Source: Modestobacter roseus
GTDB lineage: Bacteria; Actinomycetota; Actinomycetes; Mycobacteriales; Geodermatophilaceae
Assembly: GCF_007994135.1 (NCBI RefSeq)
Contig: NZ_VLKF01000001.1
Location: 1,364,001 to 1,428,000 of the forward strand
Length of the DNA stretch: 64,000 bases
Direction: 5' to 3'
This document shows positions 6,849 through 23,778 of the stretch, in pieces (within the stretch, counting starts at the first letter, position 1; each line of letters opens with the position of its first letter). The notes below the pieces were generated by a model that made no database searches, was not told where the DNA came from, and saw nothing but the letters and a program-made list of their open reading frames with translations. The position numbers and the translations under genes are program-made.

Positions 6849-6858
6849 GGACGCCCTC

Positions 6859-7560: not shown

Positions 7561-7569
7561 CGACCGGCG

Positions 7570-8307: not shown

Positions 8308-8386
8308 CGTTGCGCCTGTGCAGCGCCCGTGCGCCGCGCGGGACCCTCGTCACCTGCCCGTCACAGTGGGCGGCGATCCTGGGGGC

Positions 8387-8992
8387 ATGACGAGCACGCA
8401 GCAGGCGGTGACCGCGGACGATCTCCCGGTCACCGTCTCCTTCACCCGGCGCGCCGACCCGGCGCACGCGGTGCAGATGAGCGCCTGGATCCGGGCCGGG
8501 CTGACCCTGGCCGAGGGCGCCCCCGGCTTCCTCGGCGGTGGCTGGGTCCAGCCCCGCAACGGTGCGGACGAGTGGCACATGCTGTGCCGGTTCGACTCCC
8601 CGGCCACCCTCGCCGCCTGGGAGGCCAGCCCGGAGCGCCAGTGGTGGCTCGGCTCGGCGCAGGGCCTGGCCGAGATGACCCGCACCGAGCGGCGCACCGG
8701 CATCGAGGGGTGGTTCGACGCGCCGGTCGCCGCGGCCGAGGAGGTGGCGCCGCAGCCGGCGCCGCCGCGCTGGAAGCAGGCGACGACGATCTGGCTGGTC
8801 TTCTTCCCGCTCAACCTGCTCGCCACGGTCACGCTCGGGGCCCTGCTCGCCGACGTGCACGTGGTGGCCCGGGTCGCCGCGCTGACCATCGTGCTGACGC
8901 CGCTGATGACCTACCTGCTGCTGCCCTGGATCACGCGGCAGCTGTCCTGGTGGCTGGCCGGCCGCCGCTGGCGCGACCGCCGGGTGGGCTGA
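8387..8992 (+). CDS. Antibiotic-biosynthesis-monooxygenase (ABM)-domain membrane protein
   Basis: 201-aa protein. Residues 1-115 form a dimeric alpha/beta-barrel ABM-like domain (VTVSFTRRADPAHA, then a WHMLCRFDSPATLAAWEASPER-type strand and helix, given in part). A Pro/Ala linker follows, then two transmembrane helices (TIWLVFFPLNLLATVTLGALL and a second at about 160-180). Proteins of this architecture are widespread in actinobacteria without proven function. The ATG at 8387 was chosen because sequence upstream is non-coding and the fold begins there. Confidence 0.8.
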   Translation: MTSTQQAVTADDLPVTVSFTRRADPAHAVQMSAWIRAGLTLAEGAPGFLGGGWVQPRNGADEWHMLCRFDSPATLAAWEASPERQWWLGSAQGLAEMTRTERRTGIEGWFDAPVAAAEEVAPQPAPPRWKQATTIWLVFFPLNLLATVTLGALLADVHVVARVAALTIVLTPLMTYLLLPWITRQLSWWLAGRRWRDRRVG

Positions 8993-9010
8993 CCACGGGC
9001 GCCGGCGCCG

Positions 9011-9679
9011 TCACACCAGGTCGGCGTCGTGGGTGAGCAGGGCGACCTGCACCCGGTTGGTGAGCTCGAGCTTCACCAGCAGCCGGGAGACGTGCGCCTT
9101 GACGGTGGCAACGCTGAGGTACAGCTGCGCACCGATCTCGGCGTTGGACAGCCCCTGCCCGACGGCGAGGGCCACCTCGTGCTCCCGGTCGCTGAGCAGG
9201 GCCAGCCGGGCGCGGGCGCGGGTGCGTCGGTCGTCGGTCGCCGGGGCCGCGGCGTCGGCGACGTGCGACATCAGCCGGCGGGTGACGGTGGGGGAGAGCA
9301 TCGGCTCGCCCGCGGCCACCCGGCGCACCGCGTCCACGATGGCCGCGGGCGGGGTGTCCTTGAGCAGGAAGCCGCTGGCCCCGGCCCGCAGTGCCCGCAG
9401 CACCTGGTCGTCGGCGTCGAAGGTGGTCAGCACGATCACCTCCGGACCGCCGGACTGGTGCCGCAAGCGCTCGGTGGCGGTGAGCCCGTCGACGCGGGGC
9501 ATCCGGATGTCCATCAGGACGACGTCGGGGGAGGTGGCCGCCACCGCCGCCGGCACCTCGGCGCCGTCGGCGACCTCACCGACGAGCGCCAGGCCGTCGG
9601 CACCGCCGAGCACCATGGCGAGGGCCGCGCGGACGAGCGGGTCGTCGTCGACGACGAGCACCCGGACCGGTCCCGTCAC
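9011..9679 (-). CDS. NarL/LuxR-family response regulator
   Basis: 222-aa two-component regulator. The receiver domain shows the acidic pair in VVDDDP, phospho-acceptor Asp in VVLMDIRMP near residue 56, Thr in VLTTFD and Lys in LLKD. The C-terminal LuxR helix-turn-helix is LSDREHEVALAVGQGLSNAE (then IGAQL...). It overlaps the sensor kinase gene by 4 bp. The divergent ABC exporter genes at 11173 are the likely targets (inference from layout). Confidence 0.95.
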   Translation of the reverse strand: MTGPVRVLVVDDDPLVRAALAMVLGGADGLALVGEVADGAEVPAAVAATSPDVVLMDIRMPRVDGLTATERLRHQSGGPEVIVLTTFDADDQVLRALRAGASGFLLKDTPPAAIVDAVRRVAAGEPMLSPTVTRRLMSHVADAAAPATDDRRTRARARLALLSDREHEVALAVGQGLSNAEIGAQLYLSVATVKAHVSRLLVKLELTNRVQVALLTHDADLV

Positions 9680-11034
9680 GCCGGGTGCTCCGCCGGCCAG
9701 GGCAGCTCCGCGCGCAGCCGGAACTCCCCGTCCGCCGTCCAGCCGTGCTCGAGGTTGCCACCGCCCAGGCTGACCCGTTCCAGCAGGCCCACCAGGCCGG
9801 TGCCGGCCCCGGGCAGCGCGGGTGCGGTGTCGCGCCCGGCCGGGGCCGGGTTGCGCAGCTCCACCACCAGCCCGGTGCCCGGGGCGCCCTCGACCAGCAC
9901 GGTGGTGACCGTGCCGGGAGCGTGCTTGCGCGCGTTGGTCAGCCCCTCCTGCACCACCCGGTAGGCGCTGCGGCCCAGCCCCGGGGGTGCGGCGGCCAGC
10001 TCGGGCACCCGGTACTGCACGCGCAGTCGCACCCCCGCGCGGCGGCTCTCCTCGACCAGCACCGGCACGTCGGCGAGCGTGGGCTGCGGACGGGTGCCCG
10101 GGTCGCCACCGCCCGCACCACCATCGCCCTCACCACCATCGCCGTCCCCGTTGTGCCGGAGCACCCCGATGACCTCCCGCAGGTCCTCCAGCGCCTGCCG
10201 GGCGCTGGCCCGGACCACCCCGGCGGCCTGGGCGACCTCGGCGGCCGGGGCGTCGGGGCGGAACTCCAGCGCCCCCGCGTGCATGCTCAGCAGCGACAGC
10301 CGGTGGGCCAGCACGTCGTGCATCTCGCGGGCGATCCGGGTGCGCTCGGTGTGCCGGGCCTGCTCCACCCGGAGCTGCTGCTCGTGCTCGGCGCGCAGCG
10401 CCCGGTCGTGCAGCGACAGCACCAGCTGCCGGCGGGCCCGGACGAACATGCCCCAGGCGACGACGGCGGCGGTCGCGACGAGCCCCAGCAGGGTGAGCGC
10501 CCAGGTCGGCACCTCCGGGTCCGGCCGGACCAGGAGGTACACCGAGAAGGAGGCGACGCTGATCCCGGTGACGGCCGCGACGGTGGGCCAGCGGCGGTGC
10601 ACGGCCACGGTGAAGAGGCTGAACAGGCAGGCGATCGCGACCATGTCGGAGAAGGACGCGACCAGCGCCAGGGCGACGGCCACGCCGACCGGCCAGCGCC
10701 GCCGCAGCCACAGCGCCGCGCAGCCGAGCGAGCCGAGCACCAGGTCGGCGAACAGCAGCCCGTCCGGCGGCGGCTCGGGCTGGCTGAGCGCGCTGCCCAG
10801 GAGCACCAGCCCGACCAGCACCGACACCACGAAGGCGGTGACGTCGACGGTCCAGTCGCGGAACGACCGGCGCACCCGGCGCCGGCCGGCCGTGCTGCCG
10901 CCGGTGTCCGGGCCGCGCTCCGGAGCCGCACCCGGATCGGCCAGCAGCTGGGCCGGCACCAGGAAGGGGTGCTCGACCCCCTGGTCCGCCGCCCCTCCGC
11001 CCTCTGCGGACCCCGGGTGGGTGGTCATGGTCAC
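9676..11034 (-). CDS. Sensor histidine kinase (HisKA_3 family)
   Basis: 452-aa membrane kinase of the NarX/DesK type. It has five or so hydrophobic helices (residues about 60-190), a coiled linker, the phospho-acceptor box RIAREMHDVLAHRLSLLS, N-box VVQEGLTNARKHAPG and a late G-box GTGLVGLLERV. There is no extracellular sensing domain, so it probably senses within the membrane, as in kinases paired with drug or peptide exporters. The GTG start at 11034 lies 6 nt after a TAGCCT element, so the mRNA is probably leaderless. Confidence 0.92.
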   Translation of the reverse strand: MTMTTHPGSAEGGGAADQGVEHPFLVPAQLLADPGAAPERGPDTGGSTAGRRRVRRSFRDWTVDVTAFVVSVLVGLVLLGSALSQPEPPPDGLLFADLVLGSLGCAALWLRRRWPVGVAVALALVASFSDMVAIACLFSLFTVAVHRRWPTVAAVTGISVASFSVYLLVRPDPEVPTWALTLLGLVATAAVVAWGMFVRARRQLVLSLHDRALRAEHEQQLRVEQARHTERTRIAREMHDVLAHRLSLLSMHAGALEFRPDAPAAEVAQAAGVVRASARQALEDLREVIGVLRHNGDGDGGEGDGGAGGGDPGTRPQPTLADVPVLVEESRRAGVRLRVQYRVPELAAAPPGLGRSAYRVVQEGLTNARKHAPGTVTTVLVEGAPGTGLVVELRNPAPAGRDTAPALPGAGTGLVGLLERVSLGGGNLEHGWTADGEFRLRAELPWPAEHPA

Positions 11035-11040
11035 CCCCGG

Positions 11041-11046
11041 AGGCTA
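11041..11046 (-). promoter_or_regulatory. -10 element TAGCCT for the histidine kinase operon
   Basis: On the minus strand TAGCCT is followed by 6 nt (CCGGGG) and the GTG start at 11034, the leaderless pattern seen at many genes here. The divergent ABC operon begins about 130 bp away. Confidence 0.5.
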
Positions 11047-11172
11047 CGGGCGGGGACGTGCTCCCGGAACCGACCAAGGTCTACCTCCCGGACGCCACCG
11101 GTCGGACGCCGGAGGTGATCAGCTACTTCCGGCCGATGTGCGGAGCCGATCGGGTGGAGCAGGGTCTGGCCC

Positions 11173-12090
11173 ATGATCACCATCGAGCACCTGACCAAGA
11201 GGTACGGCGCCCAGGTCGCCGTGTCCGATGTCTCCTTCACCTGCCAACCGGGCACGGTCACCGGCTTCCTCGGCCCGAACGGCGCCGGGAAGTCGACCAC
11301 CATGCGGTCCCTGGTCGGCCTGGCCACCGCGACCAGCGGCACGGCGACCATCGCCGGCCGGGCCTACCAGGACCTGCCCAACCCCGGTCGCCAGGTCGGC
11401 GTGCTGCTCGATGCCGGCGCCCAGCACGCCGGCCGCACCGGCCGCGAGGTGCTCACGCTGTCCGCGATGACCCTCGGGGTGGGGCGCCAGCGGGTGGACG
11501 ACGTCCTCGGCCAGGTGGGCCTCGCCGGCCGGCCCGCGGGCAAGCGGCTGGGCAACTACTCCCTCGGCATGCGCCAGCGCCTGGGCCTGGCGACCGCGCT
11601 GCTGGGTGACCCGCAGGTGCTGGTGCTCGACGAGCCGGCCAACGGCCTGGACCCCGAGGGGATCTTCTGGATGCGCGGCCTGCTGCGGGGCTTCGCCGAC
11701 CGCGGTGGCACGGTGCTGCTCTCCTCGCACCTGCTGCACGAGGTGGAGGCGGTCGCCGACCAGCTGGTGGTCATCTCCGGCGGGCGGATCGTCGCGCAGG
11801 GGACCAAGTCCGAGCTGCTCGCCGACACCGGCGGCACCCTGGTGCGCGGACCGGACCGTGCCCTGCTCGCCAAGGCGCTGGAGACGGCCGGCATCGGCGT
11901 CTCACCGGGCCCGGACGACGCCCTGGTGGCCGACGCCGAGGCGCTCGCCGTCGGGCAGGCGGTGGCGGCGGCGGGCGTCGTCGTCACCGAGCTGCGGCCG
12001 GCCGGGGGAGCGGGGCTGGAGGACCTCTTCCGGTCGCTCACCAGCTCCGACTCCGGCAACGGCCAGCAGGTGCAGGAGGTGCTGGCATGA
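11173..12090 (+). CDS. ABC transporter ATP-binding protein (drug/lantibiotic exporter type)
   Basis: 305-aa ATPase. Walker A GPNGAGKST at residues 34-42, signature YSLGMRQRLGLA, Walker B VLVLDEPANGLDP and switch His in LLSSHLLHEV are all intact. The C-terminal extension after residue 220 is typical of the CcmA/DrrA-like type. It overlaps the permease gene by 4 bp. Its position divergent from a NarL-type two-component system suggests an exporter induced by membrane-active compounds (inference). RBS-like GGAGCAGGG precedes the ATG. Confidence 0.95.
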   Translation: MITIEHLTKRYGAQVAVSDVSFTCQPGTVTGFLGPNGAGKSTTMRSLVGLATATSGTATIAGRAYQDLPNPGRQVGVLLDAGAQHAGRTGREVLTLSAMTLGVGRQRVDDVLGQVGLAGRPAGKRLGNYSLGMRQRLGLATALLGDPQVLVLDEPANGLDPEGIFWMRGLLRGFADRGGTVLLSSHLLHEVEAVADQLVVISGGRIVAQGTKSELLADTGGTLVRGPDRALLAKALETAGIGVSPGPDDALVADAEALAVGQAVAAAGVVVTELRPAGGAGLEDLFRSLTSSDSGNGQQVQEVLA

Positions 12091-12887
12091 CCGCCCTGTC
12101 GTCGAACACCGCGACCCTGGACGCCGATCGGCCCGGGACCGGGGCCACTCCCAGAACGCCGTCCCTGGCCACGCTGGCCCGGGTGGAGCTGCGCAAGTCC
12201 TACGACACCCGCGCCGGACGCTGGCTGCTGATCGTCATCGGTCTGGCCGTCGTCGCCGTCCTCACCCTCGCGCTGTTCGTCCCGGACATCCCGAAGAGCT
12301 TCGCCGACCACCTCGAGTTCACCCAGTTGCCGATGAGCATCCTGCTGCCGGTGCTCGGCATCCTGCTGGTCACCAGCGAGTGGTCCCAGCGCACCGCGAT
12401 GACGACGTTCACCCTGGTGCCCCGCCGGTCCCGGGTGCTCGTCGCGAAGATGCTCGCCGGTGCCGCGCTGGCCCTGCTGGGCGTGGCGGTCGCGACGCTG
12501 GCCTCCGCGCTGACGACGGTGCTCACCCCGGTGTTCACCGACGTGGCCACGGACTGGAACGTCAGCGGCGTGCTGCTCGGGCAGGTGCTCGTCGTGCAGG
12601 TGGTGTCGGTGCTGGCCGGCATCGCGTTCGGCATGCTGCTGCTGAGCTCGCCACTGGCGATCGTCACGTTCTTCGTGCTGCCGACCGTGTTCACCATCCT
12701 GGTCGGCGTGGTGCCGGCGCTGGACTGGGTGCGCGACTGGCTGGACCTCGGGACGACGTCGATGCGGCTGTTCCAGGAGGGCCTGGACGCGCAGGACTGG
12801 GCGCAGTTCGGCACCTCGGTGGCGCTCTGGGTCGCGCTGCCGATGGTGCTCGGCTGGATCCGGATCCAGCGCAGCGAGATCAGCTGA
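12087..12887 (+). CDS. ABC transporter permease (ABC-2 type)
   Basis: 266-aa integral membrane protein with six predicted helices (for example WLLIVIGLAVVAVLTLALFV near the N-terminus) and the cytoplasmic motif SEWSQRTAMTTF that recurs in ABC-2 permeases. It starts within the stop of the ATPase gene (ATGA overlap), so the two form one transporter. Confidence 0.92.
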   Translation: MTALSSNTATLDADRPGTGATPRTPSLATLARVELRKSYDTRAGRWLLIVIGLAVVAVLTLALFVPDIPKSFADHLEFTQLPMSILLPVLGILLVTSEWSQRTAMTTFTLVPRRSRVLVAKMLAGAALALLGVAVATLASALTTVLTPVFTDVATDWNVSGVLLGQVLVVQVVSVLAGIAFGMLLLSSPLAIVTFFVLPTVFTILVGVVPALDWVRDWLDLGTTSMRLFQEGLDAQDWAQFGTSVALWVALPMVLGWIRIQRSEIS

Positions 12888-12905
12888 GCGCACCGGACCT
12901 GACCC

Positions 12906-12943
12906 GCCGGCCGGCGGCGGGGACGACCCCGCCGCCGGCCGGC
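12906..12943. terminator. Bidirectional hairpin between permease and GH15 genes
   Basis: A perfect 17-bp GC stem (GCCGGCCGGCGGCGGGG and its complement) with an ACGA loop sits exactly between the convergent stop codons at 12887 and 12944. No U-tract on either strand. Confidence 0.8.
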
Positions 12944-14734
12944 TCAGGCGTGTTCGCCGGGCATGCGCCGTTCGCCGCTGAGGTGCCGGGCGGTGTTGAC
13001 CAGCCCGACGTGGCTGAACGCCTGCGGGGTGTTGCCCAGGTGCCGGCCGGTGCGCGGGTCGTACTCCTCGCTCATCAGGCCCAGGTCGTTGCCCAGGCCC
13101 AGCAGCCGCTCGAACAGCTCCCGTGCCTCGGCCGTGCGGCCGATGCCGTTCAGCGCGTCGGCGAGCCAGAAGCTGCACAGCAGGAACGGCGCCTCGTCGC
13201 CCGGCAGGCCGTCGACCCGTCCGTCGGCGTGGGTGTGGTACCTCAGCAGGAACCCGTCGTCGGTGAGCTCGCGCTGGACGGCCTCCACGGTGCCCACGAC
13301 CCGCTCGTCGTCCCAGGGCAGGAAACCGACCTGGGGGATCAGCAGCAGGGCCGCGTCGAGCCCCTCGGACCCGTAGAACTGGGTGAAGGTGCGGCGCACC
13401 GGGTCGTAGCCGCGGGCGCAGACGTCGTCGTGGATCCGCTGGCGCAGCTCCCGCCAGCGCTCGACCGGCCCGTCCAGCCCGTGCCGTTCCACCGCCTCGA
13501 CCGCGCTGTTGACGCCGGCCCAGGCCAGCACCTTGGAGTGCACGAAGTGCCGGGGCTCGCCGCGGACCTCCCACAGGCTGTTGTCCGGGGTGTCCCAGAC
13601 GCTCTCCAGGAAGGTCATCAGCTCCTTCTGCACGGCCCAGGCGTCATCGGTGGGGCAGAGGCCGGACTCGCGGGCCAGGTGCAGCCCCTCGAGCGTCTCG
13701 CCCCAGACGTCGAGCTGGAACTGCCCGGCGGCCGCGTTGCCCACCCGCACGGGAGGCGAGTCCTCGTAGCCGGGCAGCCACGGCAGCTCGTACTCCGGGA
13801 TCCGCCGGGAACCGTCCAGCGCGTACATGATCCGCAGGTCGCTCGGGTCACCGGCGACGGCGCGCAGCAGCCAGTCCCGCCAGGCCCGGGCCTCCTCCAG
13901 GTAGCCGGTGCCGAGCAGCGCCTGCAGGGTGAACGTCGCGTCGCGCAGCCAGCAGTACCGGTAGTCCCAGTTGCGGCTGCCGCCGAGCTCCTCGGGCAGG
14001 GAGGTGGTCGCGGCGGCGACGATCCCGCCGGTGGGCTCGTAGGTCAGCGCCTTGAGCGTGATCAACGAACGGCGGACCGCGGGCCCCCACTCGCCGTCAT
14101 AGCTGCAGTGGCCGATCCACTCGGCCCAGAACTCCTCCGTGCTCGCCAGCGCGCTCTCGGCCTCGATCGGCTCGGGCCGCGGCAGGTGCGAGGGGGAGTG
14201 GGTGAGCACGAACGGGACGCGCTCGCCGGCCACGACCTCGAACTCCGCCGCCGTGGTGTGGTCCTGCCCGTGCAGGTCGACCGGCGTCGCCAGGGACACC
14301 TGGTCCGGGCCGGCCACCGCGACCAGGACGCCGTCCACCGACCGCACCCAGGGCACCAGGTGGCCGTAGTCGAACCGCAGGACCAGGTCCATCCGCATCG
14401 CCACCCGGCCGGACAGGCCCTCCACGATCCGGACGACGTCGGCCCCCTCGCCCCGGGGTGGCATCAGGTCGATGACCCGGACGCTGCCGGTCGGCGTCTC
14501 CCACTCGGTCTCCAGGACCAGCGAGTCACCCCGGTACTGCCGGCGGGTGCAGGCACCGCCGGTGGCCGGCGCGAGCTGCCAGCGGCCGTTGCGCTCGTCG
14601 CCGAGGAGGGCGGCGAAGCAGGCGGCGGAGTCGAACGACGGCAGGCACAGCCAGTCGATCGAGCCGTCCTTGCCGACCAGCGCGGCGGTCTGCAGGTCGC
14701 CGATCAGGCCGTAGTCCTCGATCGGGCTGGGCAT
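12944..14734 (-). CDS. Glycoside hydrolase family 15 protein (trehalase/glucoamylase type)
   Basis: 596 aa, the usual length of actinobacterial GH15 proteins. It begins PSPIEDYGLIGDLQTAALVG and DGSIDWLCLPSFDS, has an N-terminal beta domain and the (alpha/alpha)6 barrel signature GGSRNWDYRYCWLRDATFTL, followed by EYELPWLPGYEDSPPVRVGN. Mycobacterial relatives hydrolyse trehalose; others act on alpha-glucans. No signal peptide, so cytoplasmic. A good RBS (AGGAGGA) precedes the ATG. The 18-bp repeat at 14850-14867 lies 116 bp upstream of this start. Confidence 0.92.
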   Translation of the reverse strand: MPSPIEDYGLIGDLQTAALVGKDGSIDWLCLPSFDSAACFAALLGDERNGRWQLAPATGGACTRRQYRGDSLVLETEWETPTGSVRVIDLMPPRGEGADVVRIVEGLSGRVAMRMDLVLRFDYGHLVPWVRSVDGVLVAVAGPDQVSLATPVDLHGQDHTTAAEFEVVAGERVPFVLTHSPSHLPRPEPIEAESALASTEEFWAEWIGHCSYDGEWGPAVRRSLITLKALTYEPTGGIVAAATTSLPEELGGSRNWDYRYCWLRDATFTLQALLGTGYLEEARAWRDWLLRAVAGDPSDLRIMYALDGSRRIPEYELPWLPGYEDSPPVRVGNAAAGQFQLDVWGETLEGLHLARESGLCPTDDAWAVQKELMTFLESVWDTPDNSLWEVRGEPRHFVHSKVLAWAGVNSAVEAVERHGLDGPVERWRELRQRIHDDVCARGYDPVRRTFTQFYGSEGLDAALLLIPQVGFLPWDDERVVGTVEAVQRELTDDGFLLRYHTHADGRVDGLPGDEAPFLLCSFWLADALNGIGRTAEARELFERLLGLGNDLGLMSEEYDPRTGRHLGNTPQAFSHVGLVNTARHLSGERRMPGEHA

Positions 14735-14849
14735 GGTCGTCCTCCTGGGGGTGGGTGGCCGGGGCTGGGCCGCACCGGTGGCGCACGGACGACGCCCTGG
14801 TCCACCTACCGACCAGCTCTCGTCGGCAAACCACGTCGTACGCCATCGT

Positions 14850-14867
14850 GACCGTTATCCCCAACTA
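14850..14867 (-). repeat. 18-bp intergenic repeat TAGTTGGGGATAACGGTC, copy 1
   Basis: Read on the minus strand this is identical over 18 bp to 56149-56166 (+), and its core GTTGGGGATAACGGT recurs at 36932-36946 (+). All three copies are intergenic. Function unknown. Confidence 0.75.
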
Positions 14868-14971
14868 TTTGTCCAATCAAGGCTGACAGGCCACAACCGC
14901 AGCACTGAGACACGAGGCTTGCCTGCAAGCGGCCGGCTGCACGGACCGACAGAACTGTCGGCCCCGCTCAC

Positions 14972-14977
14972 TACCGT
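14972..14977 (+). promoter_or_regulatory. -10 element TACCGT for the hypothetical gene at 14984
   Basis: TACCGT, 6 nt, then ATG: the leaderless pattern. It supports translation of the small gene that follows. Confidence 0.5.
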
Positions 14978-14983
14978 CGCCGC

Positions 14984-15289
14984 ATGGCGGCTGCAGCTGG
15001 CGACGGGGGAGAAGCGGTGTTCGGTGAGGACGCCGACGAGTTGGGCCGGGAGCTGATGACCATGCGGTTCGACCCCGGCAGCGGTTCTCGAGTGGTGGCA
15101 ACCGGGACGTTCCGACCTGACAGCCCGCTGCTGCGCGCCATCCGAAGGGCCGAGTTCGTGGAACTGTTGAAGGACACGCGGTCCCTGGCCGACGGCGCGC
15201 GCGAACTCCGGAGCCGGGACGAGCGACGGGTCGACGCGTTCGTCGCAGTCGCGCTCGCGGTGGGAGAGGCTGCTGCAGCTCGACGATGA
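14984..15289 (+). CDS. Small hypothetical protein
   Basis: 101-aa charged protein (MAAAAGDGGEAVFGEDADEL to AVGEAAAARR), no recognised domain, no signal peptide. Codon use is looser than in neighbours (more CGA, GCT, GAA), as in acquired DNA. It sits in the sparse terminus region just upstream of the VapB-like antitoxin and behind a leaderless-type -10. Could be an orphan or a non-gene; the promoter spacing is the main support. Confidence 0.45.
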   Translation: MAAAAGDGGEAVFGEDADELGRELMTMRFDPGSGSRVVATGTFRPDSPLLRAIRRAEFVELLKDTRSLADGARELRSRDERRVDAFVAVALAVGEAAAARR

Positions 15290-15299
15290 CGATTCTGCG

Positions 15300-15317
15300 T
15301 GTCTCACCGGTGAGACA
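15300..15317. promoter_or_regulatory. 18-bp perfect palindrome upstream of the antitoxin gene
   Basis: TGTCTCACCGGTGAGACA is perfectly self-complementary and ends 9 nt before the ATG of the Phd/VapB-like gene. Antitoxins of this class repress their own operon through such palindromes, so it is the likely operator. Confidence 0.65.
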
Positions 15318-15326
15318 TTGAGTGCC

Positions 15327-15566
15327 ATGGACTCGGTGAGCGTGCGCGAGCTGCGGAACCATGGGGGAGAGGTGCTGGACAAGGTCGCCCGTGGGGCGGT
15401 CCTCGCCGTCACCCGGGACGGCACGGAGGTGGCCGAACTGCGCCCGCGGCCCCGCCGGGGACCCTCGCCGACGGAGCTGGTCGCCCGGCGGCGGTCGCTG
15501 CCGCTCGTCGATCCCGACGGTGATCCTGCTGGGCCGCCTGTCGGACCCGCAGGTCCTGCCGGATGA
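15327..15566 (+). CDS. Phd/YefM-VapB type antitoxin, C-terminus altered by a deletion
   Basis: 79-aa protein. Residues 1-40 (MDSVSVRELRNHGGEVLDKV, then ARGAVLAVTRDGTEVAELRP) are the Phd/YefM DNA-binding fold. Family members normally end in a RADLD-type toxin-binding tail; here, after RRSLPLVDPDGD, the frame runs into Gly/Pro-rich nonsense (PAGPPVGPAGPAG) that overlaps the beginning of the toxin frame. The toxin-neutralising region is therefore probably lost while DNA binding may remain. The upstream TTG at 15318 is an alternative, weaker start. Confidence 0.7.
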   Translation: MDSVSVRELRNHGGEVLDKVARGAVLAVTRDGTEVAELRPRPRRGPSPTELVARRRSLPLVDPDGDPAGPPVGPAGPAG

Positions 15567-16577: not shown

Positions 16578-16605
16578 ACTTGACATAATGTCGATTATCG
16601 GCGCG
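16578..16605 (-). other. dif: dif chromosome-dimer resolution site (XerCD target), actinobacterial type
   Basis: On the minus strand the core CCGATAATCGACATTATGTC is followed by AAGT. From memory the actinobacterial dif consensus is TTSRCCGATAATVN followed by ACATTATGTCAAGT; 26 of 28 positions agree, the two differing being the outermost T's (here CG). The two XerC/XerD arms flank a 6-bp centre, and the ATAAT/ATTAT inner repeats are intact. The site is intergenic, and gene orientation changes around it as expected at a terminus. Confidence 0.85.
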
Positions 16606-16921: not shown

Positions 16922-16968
16922 GGCACCACCCGTCATTACGTCAGAGTGACGTAATGACGGGTGGTGCC
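16922..16968. repeat. 47-nt perfect inverted repeat (22-bp arms, GAG loop)
   Basis: Left arm GGCACCACCCGTCATTACGT+CA and right arm TGACGTAATGACGGGTGGTG+CC are exact complements. The centre is CGTCA-GAG-TGACG. It lies 47 bp upstream of the lipoprotein start and 317 bp from dif. A second CGTCA-N3-TGACG with the same ATTA flank occurs at 17294-17310. It could be an operator, a terminator or a recombination remnant. Confidence 0.8.
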
Positions 16969-17014: not shown

Positions 17015-17245
17015 ATGAAGACCCCACGTCCGGTGACCGCACTGTTCCTCGCGTTGACCCTCGCGGCCGGGCCGGCGGTACTGACCGCCTGTGGCAGCAG
17101 CGAGGAAGGCGTCCTGGAGACCGGCACGATCGACGACAGCGAGGTGCAGAACACCTCGGGCGCGGACGAGGGCGACGTCGAGCGGGGCGGCGTGCCCGAC
17201 GTGGACGACTCGGGGACAGGCGAGGGCGACGACTCCGACGACTGA
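17015..17245 (+). CDS. Small acidic lipoprotein, function unknown
   Basis: 76-aa secreted lipoprotein. A basic start (MKTPRP), hydrophobic core (ALFLALTLAAGPAVL) and lipobox LTAC at residues 23-26 predict acylated Cys26. The mature part is about 50 residues, extremely acidic (Asp/Glu/Gly/Ser) and ends GEGDDSDD, so probably disordered. It could bind cations or simply be a surface tail. It lies between two CGTCA-N3-TGACG palindromes. Confidence 0.75.
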   Translation: MKTPRPVTALFLALTLAAGPAVLTACGSSEEGVLETGTIDDSEVQNTSGADEGDVERGGVPDVDDSGTGEGDDSDD

Positions 17246-17250
17246 TCCTG

Positions 17251-17271
17251 CGGGGGTGTACCGCTCCCCCG
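17251..17271 (+). terminator. Weak hairpin after the lipoprotein gene
   Basis: CGGGGG and CCCCCG arms with a 9-nt loop, 5 nt after the stop codon. Confidence 0.4.
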
Positions 17272-17293
17272 GCGGTGCACTCGGGCGCAGTGA

Positions 17294-17310
17294 ATTACGT
17301 CACGGTGACG
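17294..17310. promoter_or_regulatory. Palindrome ATTACGTCACGGTGACG, second copy of the CGTCA-N3-TGACG motif
   Basis: Matches the centre and the left flank of the hairpin at 16922-16968. It lies between the convergent lipoprotein and zinc-finger genes. Confidence 0.5.
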
Positions 17311-17341
17311 CTTTCTGACGTGCTGCCGGGGTCGGCCTGGC

Positions 17342-17737
17342 TCAACCAGCGTTGCGCCCGTTGAGCCAGAGCCGGTCCAGCCGGCCGGTCGAACGGACCA
17401 GCTCGGCGAAGGAGCGCTCCATCTCCGCCTTGGTGGGCTTCTCCGTCAGCATCGTCTGCACGTCCTCGATCGCGCAGCGCAGCTGGTACAGCCGATCCTG
17501 GAGGGCGTCGAGCTCGGCGCGGGTCACCAGGACCACGTCGTCGGACAGGCCGGCCTTGGCGCTGGCGGAGCGCTGCTCGTAGGCGCGCTGTCGACACGCC
17601 TGGCCGCAGTACAACCGGGGCCGCCCGACGGACTCCTGGGTGGGCAGCGGAGTGCGGCACCACCCACAGCGGCGCTCCTCGCCCTCGCGCTGCCGCCGGC
17701 GCACCGGACGGCTGCCGACCTGCTGCTCGACCTCCAC
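17342..17737 (-). CDS. Zinc-finger-like protein with C-terminal coiled coil
   Basis: 131-aa protein. A CxxC...CxxxC cluster (RRCGWCRTPL then RPRLYCGQACRQRAYEQRSA) is the zinc ribbon found in small actinobacterial proteins of unknown role. Residues 60-125 are Leu/Glu-rich and helical (RAELDALQDRLYQLRCAIED), probably dimerising. GTG 17737 (EVEQQVGS...) was chosen; the frame is open further upstream without good start signals. Possibly DNA- or RNA-binding; convergent with the lipoprotein gene. Confidence 0.65.
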   Translation of the reverse strand: MEVEQQVGSRPVRRRQREGEERRCGWCRTPLPTQESVGRPRLYCGQACRQRAYEQRSASAKAGLSDDVVLVTRAELDALQDRLYQLRCAIEDVQTMLTEKPTKAEMERSFAELVRSTGRLDRLWLNGRNAG

Positions 17738-17872
17738 GACGGCGACGGTAGACGGACGGTCCGACAGCTCCGGGCGGACACGCCCGCCGCCGTGCACCAG
17801 TTGGTCGTCCACGAACCGGTCGACCAGCACGCCTCGTCGGGCACCCTGCGCGGAGCCGGCGGGCGACGCCGC

Positions 17873-17878
17873 TAGCGT
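17873..17878 (+). promoter_or_regulatory. -10 element TAGCGT for the GDPD gene
   Basis: TAGCGT, 6 nt, GTG at 17885: leaderless spacing. Confidence 0.5.
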
Positions 17879-17884
17879 GTTGGG

Positions 17885-18661
17885 GTGCCCGGCCCGCGCT
17901 TCGCCTTCCTCGACGGGCCCACTCCCCTCGCGATGGCCCACCGCGGGGGCGCCATCGAGCACGTGGAGAACACCGCCGGGGCCTTCGAGGCCTGCGTGGC
18001 GCTGGGTTACCGGTACCTGGAGACCGACGTCCGCGTCACCTCCGACGGCGTCCCCGTCGTCTTCCACGACGCCACCCTGGACCGGGTCACCGACCGCACC
18101 GGCCGGGTGGACGCCCTGCGCTGGAGCGAGCTGCGCACGGCGCTGATCGGCGGCCGGGAACCGATCATGGCGCTGGAGGACCTGCTGGGCGCCTGGCCGG
18201 ACGTCCGCTTCAACCTCGACGTCAAGGCTGCCGGGGTCCTCGCCCCGCTGGTGCGCACCGTGCGCCGGCTGGCCATCGAGGACCGGATCTGCCTCGGCTC
18301 CTTCTCCGACGCGCGGATCGCGGCCGCCCGCAGGATGTTCGGGCCCGAGGTGTGCACCTCCCTGGGGCCCAAGGGGGTGGCCGCGCTGCGGCTGTCCTCC
18401 TACTCACCGCGCGCCGCGGGGCTCGTGCGCATCGAGGCCGGCTGCGCCCAGGTGCCACTGGCACTGGGTGGGCGGCCGCTGGTCGACGAGCGGTTCATCG
18501 AGGCGGCGCACGCCCGGAGCCTCCAGGTGCACGTGTGGACCGTCGACGACGAGGGCGACGCGGCGAAGATGCTCGACCTCGGGGTCGACGGGGTGATGAC
18601 CGACCGGCCGGCGATGCTCCGGGACGTGCTGGTGAACCGCGGTCAGTGGACCGGCGCGTGA
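17885..18661 (+). CDS. Glycerophosphodiester phosphodiesterase
   Basis: 258-aa TIM-barrel GDPD enzyme that hydrolyses glycerophosphodiesters to glycerol 3-phosphate and an alcohol. MAHRGGAIEHVENTAGAFE gives the catalytic His-Arg and the Glu-Asn pair; ETDVRVTSDGVPVVFHDATL supplies Glu, Asp and the second His. There is no signal peptide, so cytosolic. The following acyltransferase starts inside its stop codon (GTGA), suggesting coupled phospholipid turnover and re-acylation. Confidence 0.93.
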   Translation: MPGPRFAFLDGPTPLAMAHRGGAIEHVENTAGAFEACVALGYRYLETDVRVTSDGVPVVFHDATLDRVTDRTGRVDALRWSELRTALIGGREPIMALEDLLGAWPDVRFNLDVKAAGVLAPLVRTVRRLAIEDRICLGSFSDARIAAARRMFGPEVCTSLGPKGVAALRLSSYSPRAAGLVRIEAGCAQVPLALGGRPLVDERFIEAAHARSLQVHVWTVDDEGDAAKMLDLGVDGVMTDRPAMLRDVLVNRGQWTGA

Positions 18662-19557
18662 TCGGCCGGCTGGGCGCCCGCATCCGTGACTGGCGTCCTG
18701 CCCCACCACCGCTGCCGCCGGAGCTCGCCGGGCTGGCCGGCCCGGACGACCCGGACTGGTTCGCCCGGGAGCTGGCCATCGCCGCCGCGCCGCCGTGGTG
18801 GTTCTGGTGCGGGCTGCTGCGCACCCTGCACCGGGTCCCGGGCCTGTTCGGCCGTCTGGAGGTCACCGGGGGCATCCCCGAGGAGTGGCTGGACGGTCCG
18901 CTGCTGCTGGCGGTCAACCACATCGGCGACTTCGACACCTTCGTCGTCGCCGCCGCGCTGCACCGGGCCGGGGTGACCCCGCGCTTCATGGCGACCCGCG
19001 GCATCATGACCGCGCCGGTCGCCGGCGCGCTGCTGGAGCGATCCGGCGGCATCCGGGTCGACCGCGGTACCGACGTCGCCGCGCACGCGCTGCGGGTCAC
19101 CCGGGTGGCGCTGGCCGCCGGCGGGCACGTCGTCGCCTACCCCGAGGGGCGGGTCGGGCTGACCGCCGACGGCTGGCCGGAGCGCGGGCGCACCGGGCTG
19201 GCCCGGATGGCGCTGGCCGCCGACGTGCCGGTGATCCCGGTCAGCCAGTGGGGCGCCCACGAGGTGCTGCAGTACGCCAACGACTGGGGCAAGCTGCGCA
19301 CCGCGCTACGGGCGCTCTGGCGGCAGCCGGCGCTCCGGGTGCACATCGGTGCCCCGGTGTACTTCGAGGACCTGGCGCCGGGCCGGGTGGGTGACGCCAA
19401 CCGGGCCCGGGTGCGGATCGCCGCGGCGCTGACCCGGGGTCTGGCCCCGCTCCGGGCCGGGGAGCCGGCCGACCGGATCGCGTTCGCCGACCCCACCCGA
19501 CCCACCAGCGCGGTGGCCGCCTTCCCGGGCGGCGTCGTGCCGGAGGACATCCCGTGA
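18658..19557 (+). CDS. 1-acyl-glycerol-3-phosphate acyltransferase family (PlsC)
   Basis: 299-aa acyltransferase. Motif I is NHIGDFD (HX4D), motif III is VAYPEGRVGLTADGW, and the substrate pocket strand is VPVIPVSQWG. It is translationally coupled to the GDPD gene; GTG 18658 overlaps the upstream TGA. The C-terminal 40 residues (GEPADRIAFADPTRPTSAVA) are a non-conserved tail. It probably acylates a lysophospholipid or related acceptor. Confidence 0.88.
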   Translation: MIGRLGARIRDWRPAPPPLPPELAGLAGPDDPDWFARELAIAAAPPWWFWCGLLRTLHRVPGLFGRLEVTGGIPEEWLDGPLLLAVNHIGDFDTFVVAAALHRAGVTPRFMATRGIMTAPVAGALLERSGGIRVDRGTDVAAHALRVTRVALAAGGHVVAYPEGRVGLTADGWPERGRTGLARMALAADVPVIPVSQWGAHEVLQYANDWGKLRTALRALWRQPALRVHIGAPVYFEDLAPGRVGDANRARVRIAAALTRGLAPLRAGEPADRIAFADPTRPTSAVAAFPGGVVPEDIP

Positions 19558-19575
19558 CCGGACATCCCGTGACCG
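19546..19575 (+). repeat. 15-bp tandem duplication at the end of the acyltransferase gene
   Basis: GACATCCCGTGACCG occurs twice in tandem. The first unit contains the stop codon, so the duplicate lies in the untranslated gap. A recent slippage event is the simplest explanation. Confidence 0.8.
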
Positions 19576-19618
19576 GTCGGTGCTGGACCCGCCCCCCGGC
19601 GGCTGACACCCTGCGCCC

Positions 19619-20992
19619 GTGACCGACGCACCCCCGGCCCCCACCGGGTCCGCCGTCCCCCGTGCCGACCGTGCGCTGCGCCGGGAGCGGGGCGGCTGGT
19701 ACTCCTACGACTGGGCGATGTCGGTCTTCAACACCTCGGTGACGACCGTCTTCCTCGCCCCGTACTTGACCTCCATCGCCGAGGCGGCCGCCGACGCCGA
19801 TGGGCGGATCCACCCGCTGGGCATCAGCGTCCCGCCGGGGAGCTGGTTCGGCTACGTGCTGTCGCTGTCGGTGGTGCTGCAGGTGCTGGTGCTGCCGATC
19901 ACCGGCGCGATCGCCGACCGCAGCGGGCACAAGCGCCAGCTGTTGGCCGGGTTCGCCACCGTCGGGTCGGTGGCCACGATGGCGATGTTCTTCGTCGCTG
20001 GTGAGCGCTACCTGCTGGGGGCGGCGCTGTTCGTCGTCGCCAACCTCTGCTTCGGGGCGGCGACCGTCGTCTACTACTCCTGGCTGCCCGACCTGGCCGG
20101 CCCCGACGAGCGGGACGCCGTCTCCAGCCGGGGCTGGGCCTTCGGCTACCTCGGCGGGGCGCTGCTGCTGGCGGCGAACCTGGCGCTGTTCACCCAGTAC
20201 GAGTCCCTGGGGCTCACCGAGGGCGAGGCGGTGCGGATCTGCCTGGCCTCGGCCGGGATCTGGTGGGCCGGGTTCACCGTCGTCAGCGTCTCCTTGCTGC
20301 GGAACCGGCCACCGCGGGAGTCCGCCGTCGTCCCGGGCGGCGGGGCGCTGTCGGGGGGCTTCCGGCAGCTGGCCGCCACGCTGCGGGACATGCGCCGCTA
20401 CCGGCTGACGCTGTGGTTCCTCGGCGCCTACCTGCTCTTCAACGACGGCGTGCAGACCATCATCGGCGTCTCGGCCCAGTACGGCGCGGAGGAGCTGGAG
20501 CTCTCCCAGACGACGCTGGTCTCCACCATCCTGCTGGTCCAGGTGGTCGCCTTCTTCGGGGCGATGGGGATGGGCCGCATCGCCGCGGTGATCGGCGCCA
20601 AGCGCACCGTGCTCGGCGGCCTGGTCGTCTGGACCGGGGTGCTGGTGGCCGCCTACTTCGTCCAGGCCGGCGCGGCCGTGCAGTTCTACCTGCTCGCCGT
20701 CGTCATCGGGTTCGTGCTCGGGGGCACCCAGGCGCTGTCCCGGTCGCTGTTCAGCCAGCTGATCCCGCCGGGCAAGGAGGCGGAGTACTTCGGCTTCTAC
20801 GAGCTCAGCGACCGCGGTACGAGCTGGCTGGGTCCCTTCCTGTTCGCCCTGACCTACCAGCTGACCGACTCCTACCGGTACGCGATCTTCAGCCTCGTCC
20901 TCTTCTTCGTCCTCGGCGGGTTCCTGCTGGCCCGGCTGGACATGCGCCGCGCCATCGTCGAGGCCGGCAACACACCACCGGAGCGCCTGTGA
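19619..20992 (+). CDS. MFS transporter, Atg22/UMF1-like family
   Basis: 457-aa, 12-helix membrane protein. The signature WYSYDWAMSVFNTSVTTVFL near residue 23 and LGGTQALSRSLFSQLIP plus KEAEYFGFYELSDRGTSWLG in the C-terminal half define the Atg22-like (UMF1) transporters. Substrate unknown in bacteria. The thymidine kinase gene starts inside its stop codon (GTGA overlap). Confidence 0.9.
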   Translation: MTDAPPAPTGSAVPRADRALRRERGGWYSYDWAMSVFNTSVTTVFLAPYLTSIAEAAADADGRIHPLGISVPPGSWFGYVLSLSVVLQVLVLPITGAIADRSGHKRQLLAGFATVGSVATMAMFFVAGERYLLGAALFVVANLCFGAATVVYYSWLPDLAGPDERDAVSSRGWAFGYLGGALLLAANLALFTQYESLGLTEGEAVRICLASAGIWWAGFTVVSVSLLRNRPPRESAVVPGGGALSGGFRQLAATLRDMRRYRLTLWFLGAYLLFNDGVQTIIGVSAQYGAEELELSQTTLVSTILLVQVVAFFGAMGMGRIAAVIGAKRTVLGGLVVWTGVLVAAYFVQAGAAVQFYLLAVVIGFVLGGTQALSRSLFSQLIPPGKEAEYFGFYELSDRGTSWLGPFLFALTYQLTDSYRYAIFSLVLFFVLGGFLLARLDMRRAIVEAGNTPPERL

Positions 20993-21726
20993 CACCCGCC
21001 CCCCTGGCCGGCCCCACCGACCTGCTGGAGGTGGTGCCCGTCGCCGGTGACCGGCGTCGGCACCCGGCTCCGGCGCACCTGACGTTCTTCCACGGCCCGA
21101 TGGACTGCGGGAAGTCGACCCTGGCGCTGCAGGTCGACCACAACCAGAGCCGGCAGGGCCGCCACGGGCTGCTGCTCACCCAGGGCGACCGCTCGGGTGC
21201 CGCGCAGATCAGCTCCCGGGTCGGGCTGCGCCAGGCCGCGGTGGAGGTCGACGCCGGCACCGACGTCCGGCTGCTCGTCCGCGACCGGTGGGCGGCCGGT
21301 CAGCGGGTCGACTACCTGATCGTGGACGAGGCGCAGTTCCTCACCGGCGAGCAGGTCGAGCAGCTGGCCGAGCTGGTCGACGAGTCGCACGTCGACGTCT
21401 TCGCCTTCGGGCTGACCACCGACTTCCGGGCGCGCCTCTTCCCGGGCACGCAGCGGTTGTTCGAGCTCGCCGACGACGTCCAGCGGGTGCAGGTCATGGT
21501 GCTGTGCTGGTGCGGGCTGCCGGGGCTGCTCAACGCCCGGGTGGTCGACGGCGAGATGGTCCGCGAGGGCGCCACCGTCGTGGTCGCCGACACCGAGCCC
21601 GCCCTCCCGCCGGATGGCGCCGGGAGTGAGCCGGCCGTGCGGTACCAGGTGCTGTGCCGCCGGCACCACGCCAACGGCCAGCTCGGCCCGACGCCGACCG
21701 GGCCGGGGCAGCTGGCCCTCCGCTGA
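20989..21726 (+). CDS. tdk: Thymidine kinase
   Basis: 245-aa type II thymidine kinase of the pyrimidine salvage pathway. Walker A GPMDCGKST follows strand HLTFFH near residue 30; Walker B with catalytic Glu is YLIVDEAQFL; the lasso zinc ligands are in VLCWCGLPG and YQVLCRRHH. The N-terminal 28 residues (VTPAPLAGPTDLLEVVPVAG) extend beyond typical Tdk. Coupled to the upstream transporter gene by a 4-bp overlap. Confidence 0.9.
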   Translation: MTPAPLAGPTDLLEVVPVAGDRRRHPAPAHLTFFHGPMDCGKSTLALQVDHNQSRQGRHGLLLTQGDRSGAAQISSRVGLRQAAVEVDAGTDVRLLVRDRWAAGQRVDYLIVDEAQFLTGEQVEQLAELVDESHVDVFAFGLTTDFRARLFPGTQRLFELADDVQRVQVMVLCWCGLPGLLNARVVDGEMVREGATVVVADTEPALPPDGAGSEPAVRYQVLCRRHHANGQLGPTPTGPGQLALR

Positions 21727-21732
21727 CCGGCG

Positions 21733-21753
21733 CCACTCCCCCCGTGGGGGTGG
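21733..21753 (+). terminator. Possible weak hairpin after tdk
   Basis: CCACTCCCCC and GGGGGTGG can pair with one bulged T and a short loop, 6 nt after the stop. Confidence 0.35.
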
Positions 21754-21802
21754 TTGATCGCTGGTTCATCACCCCATGCGATGATGAGCAGTCGAACGAC
21801 AC

Positions 21803-21828
21803 GGAATCTCTTTCCGTCATCTGTCGTT
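21803..21828 (+). promoter_or_regulatory. SigR/SigH-type thiol-stress promoter of rbpA
   Basis: GGAAT at 21803-21807, an 18-nt spacer and GTT at 21826-21828 reproduce the SigR (Streptomyces)/SigH (mycobacterial) consensus GGAAT-N18-GTT exactly. Streptomyces rbpA is a known SigR target. The leader to the ATG is about 85 nt. Confidence 0.8.
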
Positions 21829-21921
21829 GACCTCTGCGACACCCCGAGCCGGATGCGTGAGCAGTCGGCCGTCCGGGCAGTCTCAGACCAGACCGAGATC
21901 AGCACGAGAGGACGGTGTGCC

Positions 21922-22266
21922 ATGGGCGAGCGTTCCCTGCGCGGAAGCCGACTGGGCAGCGTGAGCTACGAGACCGAGCGCAACACCGCGCCCATCGAGC
22001 GGCAGTACGCCGAGTACAAGTGCGCCCAGGGTCACCTGGTCACTGTGCCCTTCGCCGACGACGCGGAGCTCCCCGACACGTGGGAGTGCAAGTACGACGG
22101 CTCGGCCGCCAAGCTGGTCGGTGGCTCCGAGCCCGCCCCCAAGAAGGTCAAGCCCCCGCGCACGCACTGGGACATGCTCCTGGAGCGTCGTTCGGTGGAC
22201 GACCTCGAGGAGGTGCTCGCCGAGCGCCTCGAGGTGCTCCGCGGGCGGCGCACCCGCGCCAGCTGA
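21922..22266 (+). CDS. rbpA: RNA polymerase-binding protein RbpA
   Basis: 114-aa essential transcription activator of actinobacteria that binds RNA polymerase and the group I/II sigma factor and stabilises the open complex. The conserved start GERSLRGSRLGSVSYETE, the core domain CAQGHLVTVPFADDAELPDTWEC (cited in part), the basic linker KKVKPPRTHWDML and the sigma-interacting helix RRSVDDLEEVLAERLEVLR are all present. RBS GAGAGGAC precedes the ATG. Confidence 0.97.
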   Translation: MGERSLRGSRLGSVSYETERNTAPIERQYAEYKCAQGHLVTVPFADDAELPDTWECKYDGSAAKLVGGSEPAPKKVKPPRTHWDMLLERRSVDDLEEVLAERLEVLRGRRTRAS

Positions 22267-22282
22267 CGCAGCAGCACGACAG

Positions 22283-22322
22283 CGAACGGCCCCGGTGGGA
22301 GATCTCCCACCGGGGCCGTTCG
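22283..22322. terminator. Bidirectional terminator between rbpA and fxsA
   Basis: A perfect 40-bp palindrome centred on AGATCT (arms CGAACGGCCCCGGTGGGAGA and complement) lies between the convergent stops at 22266 and 22337. Confidence 0.85.
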
Positions 22323-22336
22323 GCGTCCGGGCCCGG

Positions 22337-22933
22337 TCAGCGCCCGGACGGGCCGTCCTCGACCTCACCCTCGACCACGCGTCCTTCGACCACGCGCCCC
22401 TCGATCACCCGGTGCGCCGGGCCCGCGCGGTACACGTCGGTCCCCCGCACGTCGGACGGGGCGTCGGCCACGGTGCCGTCGACGGTGCGGGTGGCCTGCA
22501 CGCGCACCGGGCCGAGCCAGCGGGCGGGCAGCCGGTGGGCGATCCCCCGGGCGATGAGCGCGCGCGGCAGCGCCCGGGTGCCCGGCAGCAGGCACATCAG
22601 GCCCAGGACGTCGCCGATGAAGCCGGGCAGCACCATCAGCAGCCCGCCGAGGGCGACCAGTCCGGCGTCCCCCAGGGCGCGGCCCGGCGCCCGGTGCTCC
22701 TCGGCCCGCAGCCGCAGCTCGGTGAGCGCCCGGGTGCCCTGGCGGGCCAGCAGCAGCCCGCCCAGCGCGCTGGTCGCCAGCGCCAGCAGCAGCGTCCAGC
22801 CGACGCCGATCCAGCTGGCGACGAGCACGAAGACGACGACCTCGGCCAGTGCGCCCAGTCCCACCGCCGTCCGCCAGCGCGAGGACGCCCGCCGCCGCGG
22901 GGTGTGCCCGCCGATCGCGGAGCCCATGGCCAT
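22337..22933 (-). CDS. fxsA: FxsA-family membrane protein
   Basis: 198-aa membrane protein. AEVVVFVLVASWIGVGWTLL and the loop-helix GLLMVLPGFIGDVLGLMCLL are the FxsA signature; E. coli FxsA relieves F exclusion of phage T7, and its general role is unknown. The C-terminus has repeats (VIEGRVVEGRVVEGEVEDG) encoded by short direct repeats. ATG 22933 (MAMGSA) has GGAGAGGAG just upstream. It is downstream of ppm1 on the same strand, as in mycobacteria. Confidence 0.9.
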   Translation of the reverse strand: MAMGSAIGGHTPRRRASSRWRTAVGLGALAEVVVFVLVASWIGVGWTLLLALATSALGGLLLARQGTRALTELRLRAEEHRAPGRALGDAGLVALGGLLMVLPGFIGDVLGLMCLLPGTRALPRALIARGIAHRLPARWLGPVRVQATRTVDGTVADAPSDVRGTDVYRAGPAHRVIEGRVVEGRVVEGEVEDGPSGR

Positions 22934-22974
22934 GTGTCTCTCCTCTCCGGCCGCGGAACGGGTGGCCGGCGCTC

Positions 22975-23778
22975 CTACTGGAGCGCCTGTGTCCGCCCGT
23001 CGCGGCTGCGCGCGGGCACCGGACGGGGCACCCGCCCGGGCAGCCGGTCGGCCAGCCGGTCGAGCACGCCCCACCAGGTGACCCGTGCCAACGCCTCTCC
23101 AACGATCGAACCGCTCATCTTGCTCCGGCCGACCGTGCGTTCGGTGAACGTGATCGGCACCTCCACCACCCGGGCGCCGGACCGTACCGCCCGCCAGGCC
23201 CAGTCGACCTGGAAGCAGTAGCCCTGGCTGGCGACCTGGTCGAAGGGCAGCCGGGCCAGCAGGTCGGCGCGGGCGGCCCGGAAGCCGCCGGTGGCATCGG
23301 CCAGCGGCAGCCGCAGGGCCCAGCGGGTGTAGACGTTGCCGATCCGGGAGATGGCCTGCCGCCGGCGGGGCCAGTCGCGCACCTGGCCGCCCGGCACCCA
23401 CCGCGACCCGAGCGCCAGGTCGGCGTCGGCCAGCGCGGCCAGCAGGGCGGGCAGCCGCTCGGGTGGGTGCGACCCGTCGGCGTCCATCTCCACCACCACG
23501 GCGCAGCCGTGCTCGGCGGCCCAGCGGAATCCGGCGACGTAGGCCGGCCCCAGCCCCTGCTTGCCGGCCCGGTGCAGCACGTGCACCCGGTGGTCGGCGG
23601 CGGCCCGGGCGTCGGCCAGCTCGCCGGTGCCGTCGGGTGAGGCGTCGTCGACGACCAGCACGTGGGCCGCGGGCACCGCGGCGTGCAGCCGGTCGAGCAC
23701 CGCGCCGAGGCTCCCCACCTCCTCGTAGGTGGGGATGACCACCAGCACGGAGCCCTCCGGCCCGGCTCCGTCGGTCAC
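22975..23778 (-). CDS. ppm1: Polyprenol-phosphate mannosyltransferase (Ppm1-like, GT2)
   Basis: 267-aa family 2 glycosyltransferase that makes polyprenyl-phosphomannose, the lipid donor for lipoprotein and lipoglycan mannosylation. VVIPTYEE, VVDDASPDGTG, EMDADGSHPPERLPALL (the DAD metal site) and ATGGFRA are typical of dolichol-phosphate mannose synthases. There are no membrane segments. It overlaps the lnt stop (GTGA). In M. tuberculosis these two activities are one bifunctional protein; here they are separate, coupled genes. Confidence 0.92.
   Translation of the reverse strand: MTDGAGPEGSVLVVIPTYEEVGSLGAVLDRLHAAVPAAHVLVVDDASPDGTGELADARAAADHRVHVLHRAGKQGLGPAYVAGFRWAAEHGCAVVVEMDADGSHPPERLPALLAALADADLALGSRWVPGGQVRDWPRRRQAISRIGNVYTRWALRLPLADATGGFRAARADLLARLPFDQVASQGYCFQVDWAWRAVRSGARVVEVPITFTERTVGRSKMSGSIVGEALARVTWWGVLDRLADRLPGRVPRPVPARSRDGRTQALQ

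Follow-up and report, generated by a model that had tools for sequence, protein, structure and literature searches.

The window, by which we mean the whole 64-kb stretch of the Modestobacter roseus genome analyzed here (contig C1 positions 1364001-1428000), carries the chromosomal dimer resolution site dif between an isochorismatase-domain ORF and a small lipoprotein-like gene, with two copies of a companion palindrome beside it and short G-rich words on either side. The features on which the argument draws are these:

4362..15369, plus strand: eight KOPS-like GGGGGAG words left of dif (8:0), all pointing to dif
16003-16557: isochorismatase-domain ORF, ending just before dif
16578..16605, minus strand: dif, 28 bp, unique in the genome, with matches in the family, at a switch in the polarity of the KOPS-like words
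16578-16588: XerD arm of dif
16589-16594: central hexamer of dif, TCGACA
16595-16605: XerC arm of dif
16922..16968, no strand: companion palindrome found by a repeat search on the XerC side; its two 22-bp arms are perfect and enclose a centre of 3 nt
17015..17245, plus strand: small acidic lipoprotein-like gene, 76 aa, no Pfam match, its start at a near-fixed distance from the palindrome core
17294..17314, no strand: second companion copy, ATTACGTCACGGTGACGCTTT, its core exact; it separates the lipoprotein ORF from its next neighbour
17264..61663, minus strand: 26 KOPS-like GGGGGAG words right of dif (1:26), pointing to dif
59608, plus strand: the lone right-side GGGGGAG on the opposite strand

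On the minus strand, positions 16578-16605 spell CGCGCCGATAATCGACATTATGTCAAGT, a sequence with two differences from TTCRCCGATAATNNACATTATGTCAAGT, which we take to be the actinobacterial dif consensus (26/28 agreement if both N are scored as agreement). The arms were assigned by their presumed similarity to those of E. coli dif. None of 100 dinucleotide shuffles of the window held a match at ≤3 mismatches, and at the same threshold the site is the only one in the M. roseus genome (4,516,512 bases in two contigs). At ≤2 mismatches, 104 of the 112 family genomes have a match; each has just one, apart from a genome that carries two, on separate contigs. In the order, a match at ≤3 mismatches is present in 279 of 298 genomes, and in the class one at ≤2 in 194 of 295. 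Alignment to the family sites showed a conserved XerC arm, XerD arm and 6-bp centre. Among the actinobacterial dif sites predicted in the part of PMC3025954 available to us, that of Frankia alni is identical to ours at 25 of 28 positions, counted by hand. The site is thus dif, located at the replication terminus, and the matches across family, order and class make it, as such, a known kind of site. A sequence-only reading of this DNA had already proposed an intergenic actinobacterial dif here and had named an equal or better match elsewhere on the chromosome as a refutation; the site is unique, and it is intergenic, the flanking ORFs ending at 16557 and starting at 17015.

The same reading had placed a probable replication terminus at dif, and the position of the site agrees with it. 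dif lies at ~1,380,591 (1.3806 Mb) and the single DnaA match at 3,647,171 of the 4,511,824 bases of contig C1, 2,266,580 bases away, which is 10.7 kb (~11 kb) off antipodal if the contig is circular, as we infer. In 811,825 bases (0.81 Mb) sampled from both chromosome arms, the most strand-biased octamer, CGGGGGAG, pointed toward dif 195:8 with both arms read in the dnaA-to-dif direction. The shorter form of this octamer, GGGGGAG, changes strand across dif, at some point between 15363 and 17264, so that the words converge on it. The KOPS of E. coli, GGGNAGGG, is likewise a G-rich 7-8-mer with a strand bias toward dif, although the word differs, and CGGGGGAG is a candidate KOPS of the M. roseus family. 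A search of the open-access literature returned no text that combines FtsK-orienting with GGGGGAG. The genome encodes one FtsK gamma domain (87.8 bits) and two XerCD-type recombinases, of which one passes the curated cut-off of the XerD model (342.8 bits) and the other falls short of it (255.7 bits).

Other signs of a terminus that had been claimed or expected were less sharp. The GC skew of the genome is mostly positive up to ~1.34-1.36 Mb, about zero up to ~1.46 Mb and mostly negative beyond; a sign change is therefore present, spread over ~40 kb on the left of dif and ~80 kb on its right, but it is weak and broad, and no clear turn occurs inside the 64-kb window. The polarity of the KOPS-like words is stronger evidence for the terminus than the skew. 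The change in gene orientation at dif follows the trend described earlier, but a rough GC3-based gene caller gave 9+/3- left of dif and 12+/26- right of it rather than the claimed 13+/4- and 13+/34-. As to the sparse, decayed surroundings, a Phd/YefM-like antitoxin ORF in 15327-15957 scores below the cut-off and the PIN-domain ORF that follows it there covers only profile positions 29-114 of 120 and is possibly decayed; both are consistent with the description but do not go further.

A dif at this place was to be expected; what is new is its companion on the XerC side, which the sequence-only reading did not mention. The palindrome at 16922-16968 lies 317 bp from dif, its core, CGTCAGAGTGACG, has one mismatch to CGTCACNGTGACG, and as single-stranded DNA it is predicted to form a hairpin of -29.4 kcal/mol (z -9.0). 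Across the whole genome, its centre, ATTACGTCANNNTGACGTAAT, occurs at ≤3 mismatches in two places, 16935-16955 and 17294-17314, both beside dif, and second XerC-side copies are frequent within the M. roseus genus. We rejected the short core alone as a dif-specific mark because, stripped of its shoulders, it occurs at 9 places in this genome compared to 2-3 for a reversed control.

The motif was derived from 51 dif loci of four genera (that of M. roseus and further ones) and 20 loci of further genera. All 51 loci hold a site with 0-6 mismatches to ATTACGTCACNGTGACGTAAT within 1.45 kb of dif, compared to 7-10 mismatches in one shuffle of each, and so do 18 of the 20 (the exceptions being L105 and L106); since the motif came from these loci, they are not an independent test of it. 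We therefore turn to a survey by family, in which the core CGTCACNGTGACG was scored at ≤1 mismatch within 520 bp of dif, separately on the XerC and XerD sides. Of the 73 loci sampled in the family of M. roseus, 67 had the core on the XerC side and 3 on the XerD side. The corresponding counts were 9/12 and 0/12 in f7, the family that includes Mycobacterium, 4/10 and 1/10 in f13, 4/5 and 0/5 in f3, and 3/4 and 0/4 in f4, with 2/2 and 0/2 for extra dif-like places in one f4 genome. Identical plasmid contigs assign two of the f7 genomes to Mycolicibacterium crocinum and Mycobacterium gordonae. Nine families had no XerC-side core in 26 loci (f2 0/7, f14 0/5, f12 0/4, f9 0/4, f10 0/2, and 0/1 each in f5, f6, f8 and f11), nor was one seen in 30 loci of the class that belong to other orders, whose single core, at +751, is on the other side. 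Of all core sites within 1.4 kb of dif, the XerC side had 124 and the XerD side 19. As a control, we examined 324 stretches, each 1040 bp long and at least 2 kb from dif, and two of them contained the core.

The spacing between palindrome and dif is loose, about 50-650 bp, with no helical phasing of the distance (n=94, R ≤0.20; n=109, R ≤0.08 for 10-11 bp). Palindrome sites away from dif exist in some genomes (5/7 at ≤1 mismatch in G315). One 15-mer variant of the palindrome recurs at four places in another genome (G174:C1 604183, 1086692, 1566014 and 2565348) and is perhaps part of a mobile element.

We also scanned contigs widely with a pattern made of the core, 255-285 bases and TTATGTCA, in which only 8 bases of dif are specified. 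This returned at least 119 loci, and 109 of the 119 among the matches listed have a full dif with ≤4 mismatches at the expected place. Among the matches listed, these 109 comprise 69 mycobacteria sensu lato, 15 Nocardia, 9 Rhodococcus/Rhodococcoides, 4 Gordonia, 2 Williamsia, 3 Acidimicrobiaceae MAGs, 3 other actinobacteria, and one each of Blastococcus, Corynebacterium glucuronolyticum, Actinosynnema and Saccharopolyspora. The 10 listed matches without such a dif carry the labels of other phyla (7), "bacterium" (1), Nocardia carnea (1) and Mycobacterium (1). The N. carnea locus (L288) combines a 7-base centre in its dif-like site with a palindrome on the XerC side. Among the listed named loci, bases beyond the searched core are conserved as well (CAATT...TATTG), giving the consensus CAATTCGTCACAGTGACGTATTG, while in 20-base bins around dif, the site itself excluded, mean pairwise identity in the listed loci is 0.26-0.29, equal to chance. 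Two assemblies, those of Mycobacterium sp. BK086 (L260, L279) and Mycolicibacterium vinylchloridicum (L204, L254), contain in addition to a dif of chromosomal type a second one whose central hexamer differs, and a palindrome accompanies each of the two sites. In phages, the core followed by 235-265 bases and TTATGTCA gave no match; the core followed by 42-72 bases and TTATGTC gave 9, none of them beside dif (best dif-like sequences at 7-9 mismatches).

Plasmids offered a sample chosen blind to the palindrome. PLSDB was queried with three short dif-like sequences, which matched 64, 22 and 25 records, and from the 87 matches listed we took 26 plasmids by organism. All six Mycobacterium/Mycolicibacterium plasmids have an XerC-side palindrome at ≤1 mismatch, at -182 to -645; since L348, L350 and L354 share flanks and spacing, these are not six independent cases. 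By contrast, 1 of 20 non-mycobacterial plasmids has a palindrome at its dif-like site (Rhodococcus 1/6), and no XerC-side palindrome was present in Gordonia (0/6), Dietzia (0/1) or other orders (0/7). Letter shuffles of the plasmid stretches held the palindrome in 2 of 760 cases. Two further plasmids, from M. gordonae (NZ_CP070974.1) and M. crocinum (NZ_CP092363.2), were not counted as tests because they were found via the palindrome and 6 mismatches were counted in their dif-like site. The M. crocinum plasmid also carries a third core (L148), near which there is no dif-like site.

Other observations on the plasmids concern the dif-like sites themselves. In all 26 plasmid stretches (L347-L372) the site coincides with no listed feature, the PLSDB gene table being incomplete, and the central hexamers are mostly unlike chromosomal ones. 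In four plasmids (L352, L355, L359 and L360), a Phd/YefM-RelE toxin-antitoxin pair stands directly on the XerC side of the site.

That the palindrome is without function and accompanies dif by chance, or through the shared ancestry of a drifting terminus, is suggested by the relatedness of the loci in the M. roseus family, among which the motif was first spotted. We regard this explanation as extremely improbable: the core and dif are kept in the listed loci where the flanks of dif have fallen to chance identity, separate families and plasmids picked in ignorance of the palindrome carry the core, and the controls from chromosomes and shuffled plasmids were nearly empty.

Within the family of M. 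roseus, the palindrome is also tied to a gene. The lipoprotein-like gene was recognized beside dif in 40 of 73 loci, and in 37 of these 40 the core lies 62-67 bases from its start codon (sd 1.0), whereas the distance from core to dif varies (sd 77). A fixed distance to the start codon together with a variable one to dif looks like an operator in this family. The outer arms co-vary, with pairing at position 16 of 0.55 compared to 0.26 expected from shuffles (z 5.8; 73 sites, up to 3 of them from other families). Because of the fixed start-codon distance and the arm co-variation, the palindrome of this family probably has a second task at the lipoprotein promoter or forms a hairpin; in other families this gene does not stand beside the site. 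The distance and the co-variation also favor the idea that the palindrome is just a standard operator, or a 5' hairpin, of the lipoprotein gene and sits near dif through conserved terminus synteny only, an explanation that we consider unlikely. In L107, L108 and L110 the lipoprotein gene lies ~880 bp from dif without a core, but the core has stayed at -321 to -331; on the M. gordonae plasmid, two convergent ORFs end on either side of the palindrome; and no protein family within 3 kb of dif is common to many of the listed loci, the largest occurring in 9 of 110 (8-kb slices, some with cut flanks). That the palindrome accompanies dif in many mycobacterial relatives and on mycobacterial plasmids though the neighbouring genes differ suggests that it is a partner of dif itself. 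A search for a shared gene near dif that might encode its binder gave none, either in these listed loci or in the M. roseus family, where conserved genes do lie near dif but the clusters mix reading frames.

The presence of two copies flanking the gene beside dif, and of a long perfect hairpin in the window, could also mean that the palindrome protects dif by blocking replication forks or terminating transcription. However, no T-tract terminator-like site was found in 16500-17400, and in the named loci outside the M. roseus family the arms pair no better than expected by chance past about position 13, so that no long hairpin is kept there. Known fork barriers such as Tus-Ter and RTP are polar, whereas the palindrome is symmetric and mostly one-sided. 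A barrier or terminator role is accordingly very unlikely.

We favor instead the reading that the palindrome is a conserved second part of the dif module, to which we assign a probability of about 0.5: a dimeric protein would bind it and act on the Xer complex, with an additional promoter role in the family of M. roseus. By analogy with the known system, XerC and XerD would recombine two dif copies and so turn a chromosome dimer into monomers, and FtsK would be led to dif by the G-rich polar words that point in from both arms. The predicted dimer would sit on CGTCAC-N-GTGACG with its A+T-rich shoulders, ~50-650 bp from dif, and from there may act on the Xer complex, most likely in the manner of the cer and psi accessory proteins, either by favoring synapsis of sites on the same molecule or by loading or holding the recombinases. 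In the M. roseus family, the palindrome would also have been recruited to the promoter of the neighbouring lipoprotein gene.

Much of this resembles the dif/XerCD/FtsK system of the E. coli chromosome, in which a single 28-bp site with an XerC arm, a 6-bp centre and an XerD arm lies opposite the origin and polar words point toward it; the genes for FtsK gamma and the Xer recombinases are encoded here as well. The conserved XerC-side palindrome is the difference, and it is absent from the account of dif in the part of PMC3025954 at hand. Plasmid Xer sites provide the closer parallel. The cer site of ColE1 and the psi site of pSC101 have accessory sequences that work with ArgR or ArcA, and with PepA. 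The motif of the palindrome is unlike what we take to be the ArgR box. The available part of PMC11724359 places the accessory sequences of cer and psi next to the XerC arm and states that chromosomal dif and large replicons depend on FtsK, without accessory sequences. Like them, the palindrome is a predicted protein-type binding site beside the XerC arm, as the bias of 124 to 19 attests, and it is found at plasmid Xer sites too; this match in side makes action on the Xer complex our first choice. It differs in motif, in a longer and looser spacing without the defined positions of ArgR and ArcA relative to the Xer site, and in occurring at chromosomal dif and on plasmids of 200-470 kb, where FtsK would be expected to suffice. 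With spacing so loose and unphased, a rigid loop is less plausible than wrapping, sliding synapsis or tethering.

The main rival to action on the Xer complex is a dedicated terminus-marking protein that, as MatP does on matS, would position, condense or tether the region around dif for cell division and leave recombination untouched. matS, GTGACRNYGTCAC, is a 13-bp palindrome that marks the terminus, and the core, itself a perfect palindrome, shares this length and location; moreover, in 13 genomes the 12 exact places of the A/T-shouldered site comprise 8 within ~600 bp of dif, 2 at 6 or 19 kb and 2 on plasmids. The sequences differ, however (CGTCACNGTGACG compared to GTGACRNYGTCAC), the half-sites being in the opposite order, and where matS sites are many and scattered over a domain, one to three copies of the palindrome hug dif, with the two sites of M. 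roseus at ≤3 mismatches both there. The bias to the XerC side would play no part in such a model. Taken together, these points leave a terminus mark rather unlikely, albeit worth serious consideration.

The literature searched gave no precedent for the palindrome. Searches of open-access papers did not return GTCACNGTGAC; of four spellings of the core, one occurs in a single paper, listed as an unrelated endothelial study; and a search by title gave no description of a dif-adjacent palindrome within a scope that leaves many subscription papers and preprints outside. The parts of PMC3025954, PMC13277299 and PMC11724359 available to us contain no description of it either.

We put at even odds the broader proposal that dif of the Mycobacteriales is a two-part module, on chromosomes and large plasmids alike, consisting of the 28-bp site and a palindrome whose putative dedicated binder controls Xer recombination or the handling of dif. 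If so, mycobacteria and their kin, which according to PMC13277299 lack known homologues of Min or nucleoid-occlusion proteins, would use one more DNA-binding protein in resolving dimers or handling the terminus, and a two-part module would mean a layer of control beyond that of the E. coli chromosome. The 23-bp site is a ready bait for the binder, and plasmids with and without the palindrome are natural comparisons. In addition, the palindrome flags Xer sites on actinobacterial plasmids in stretches where no feature is listed.
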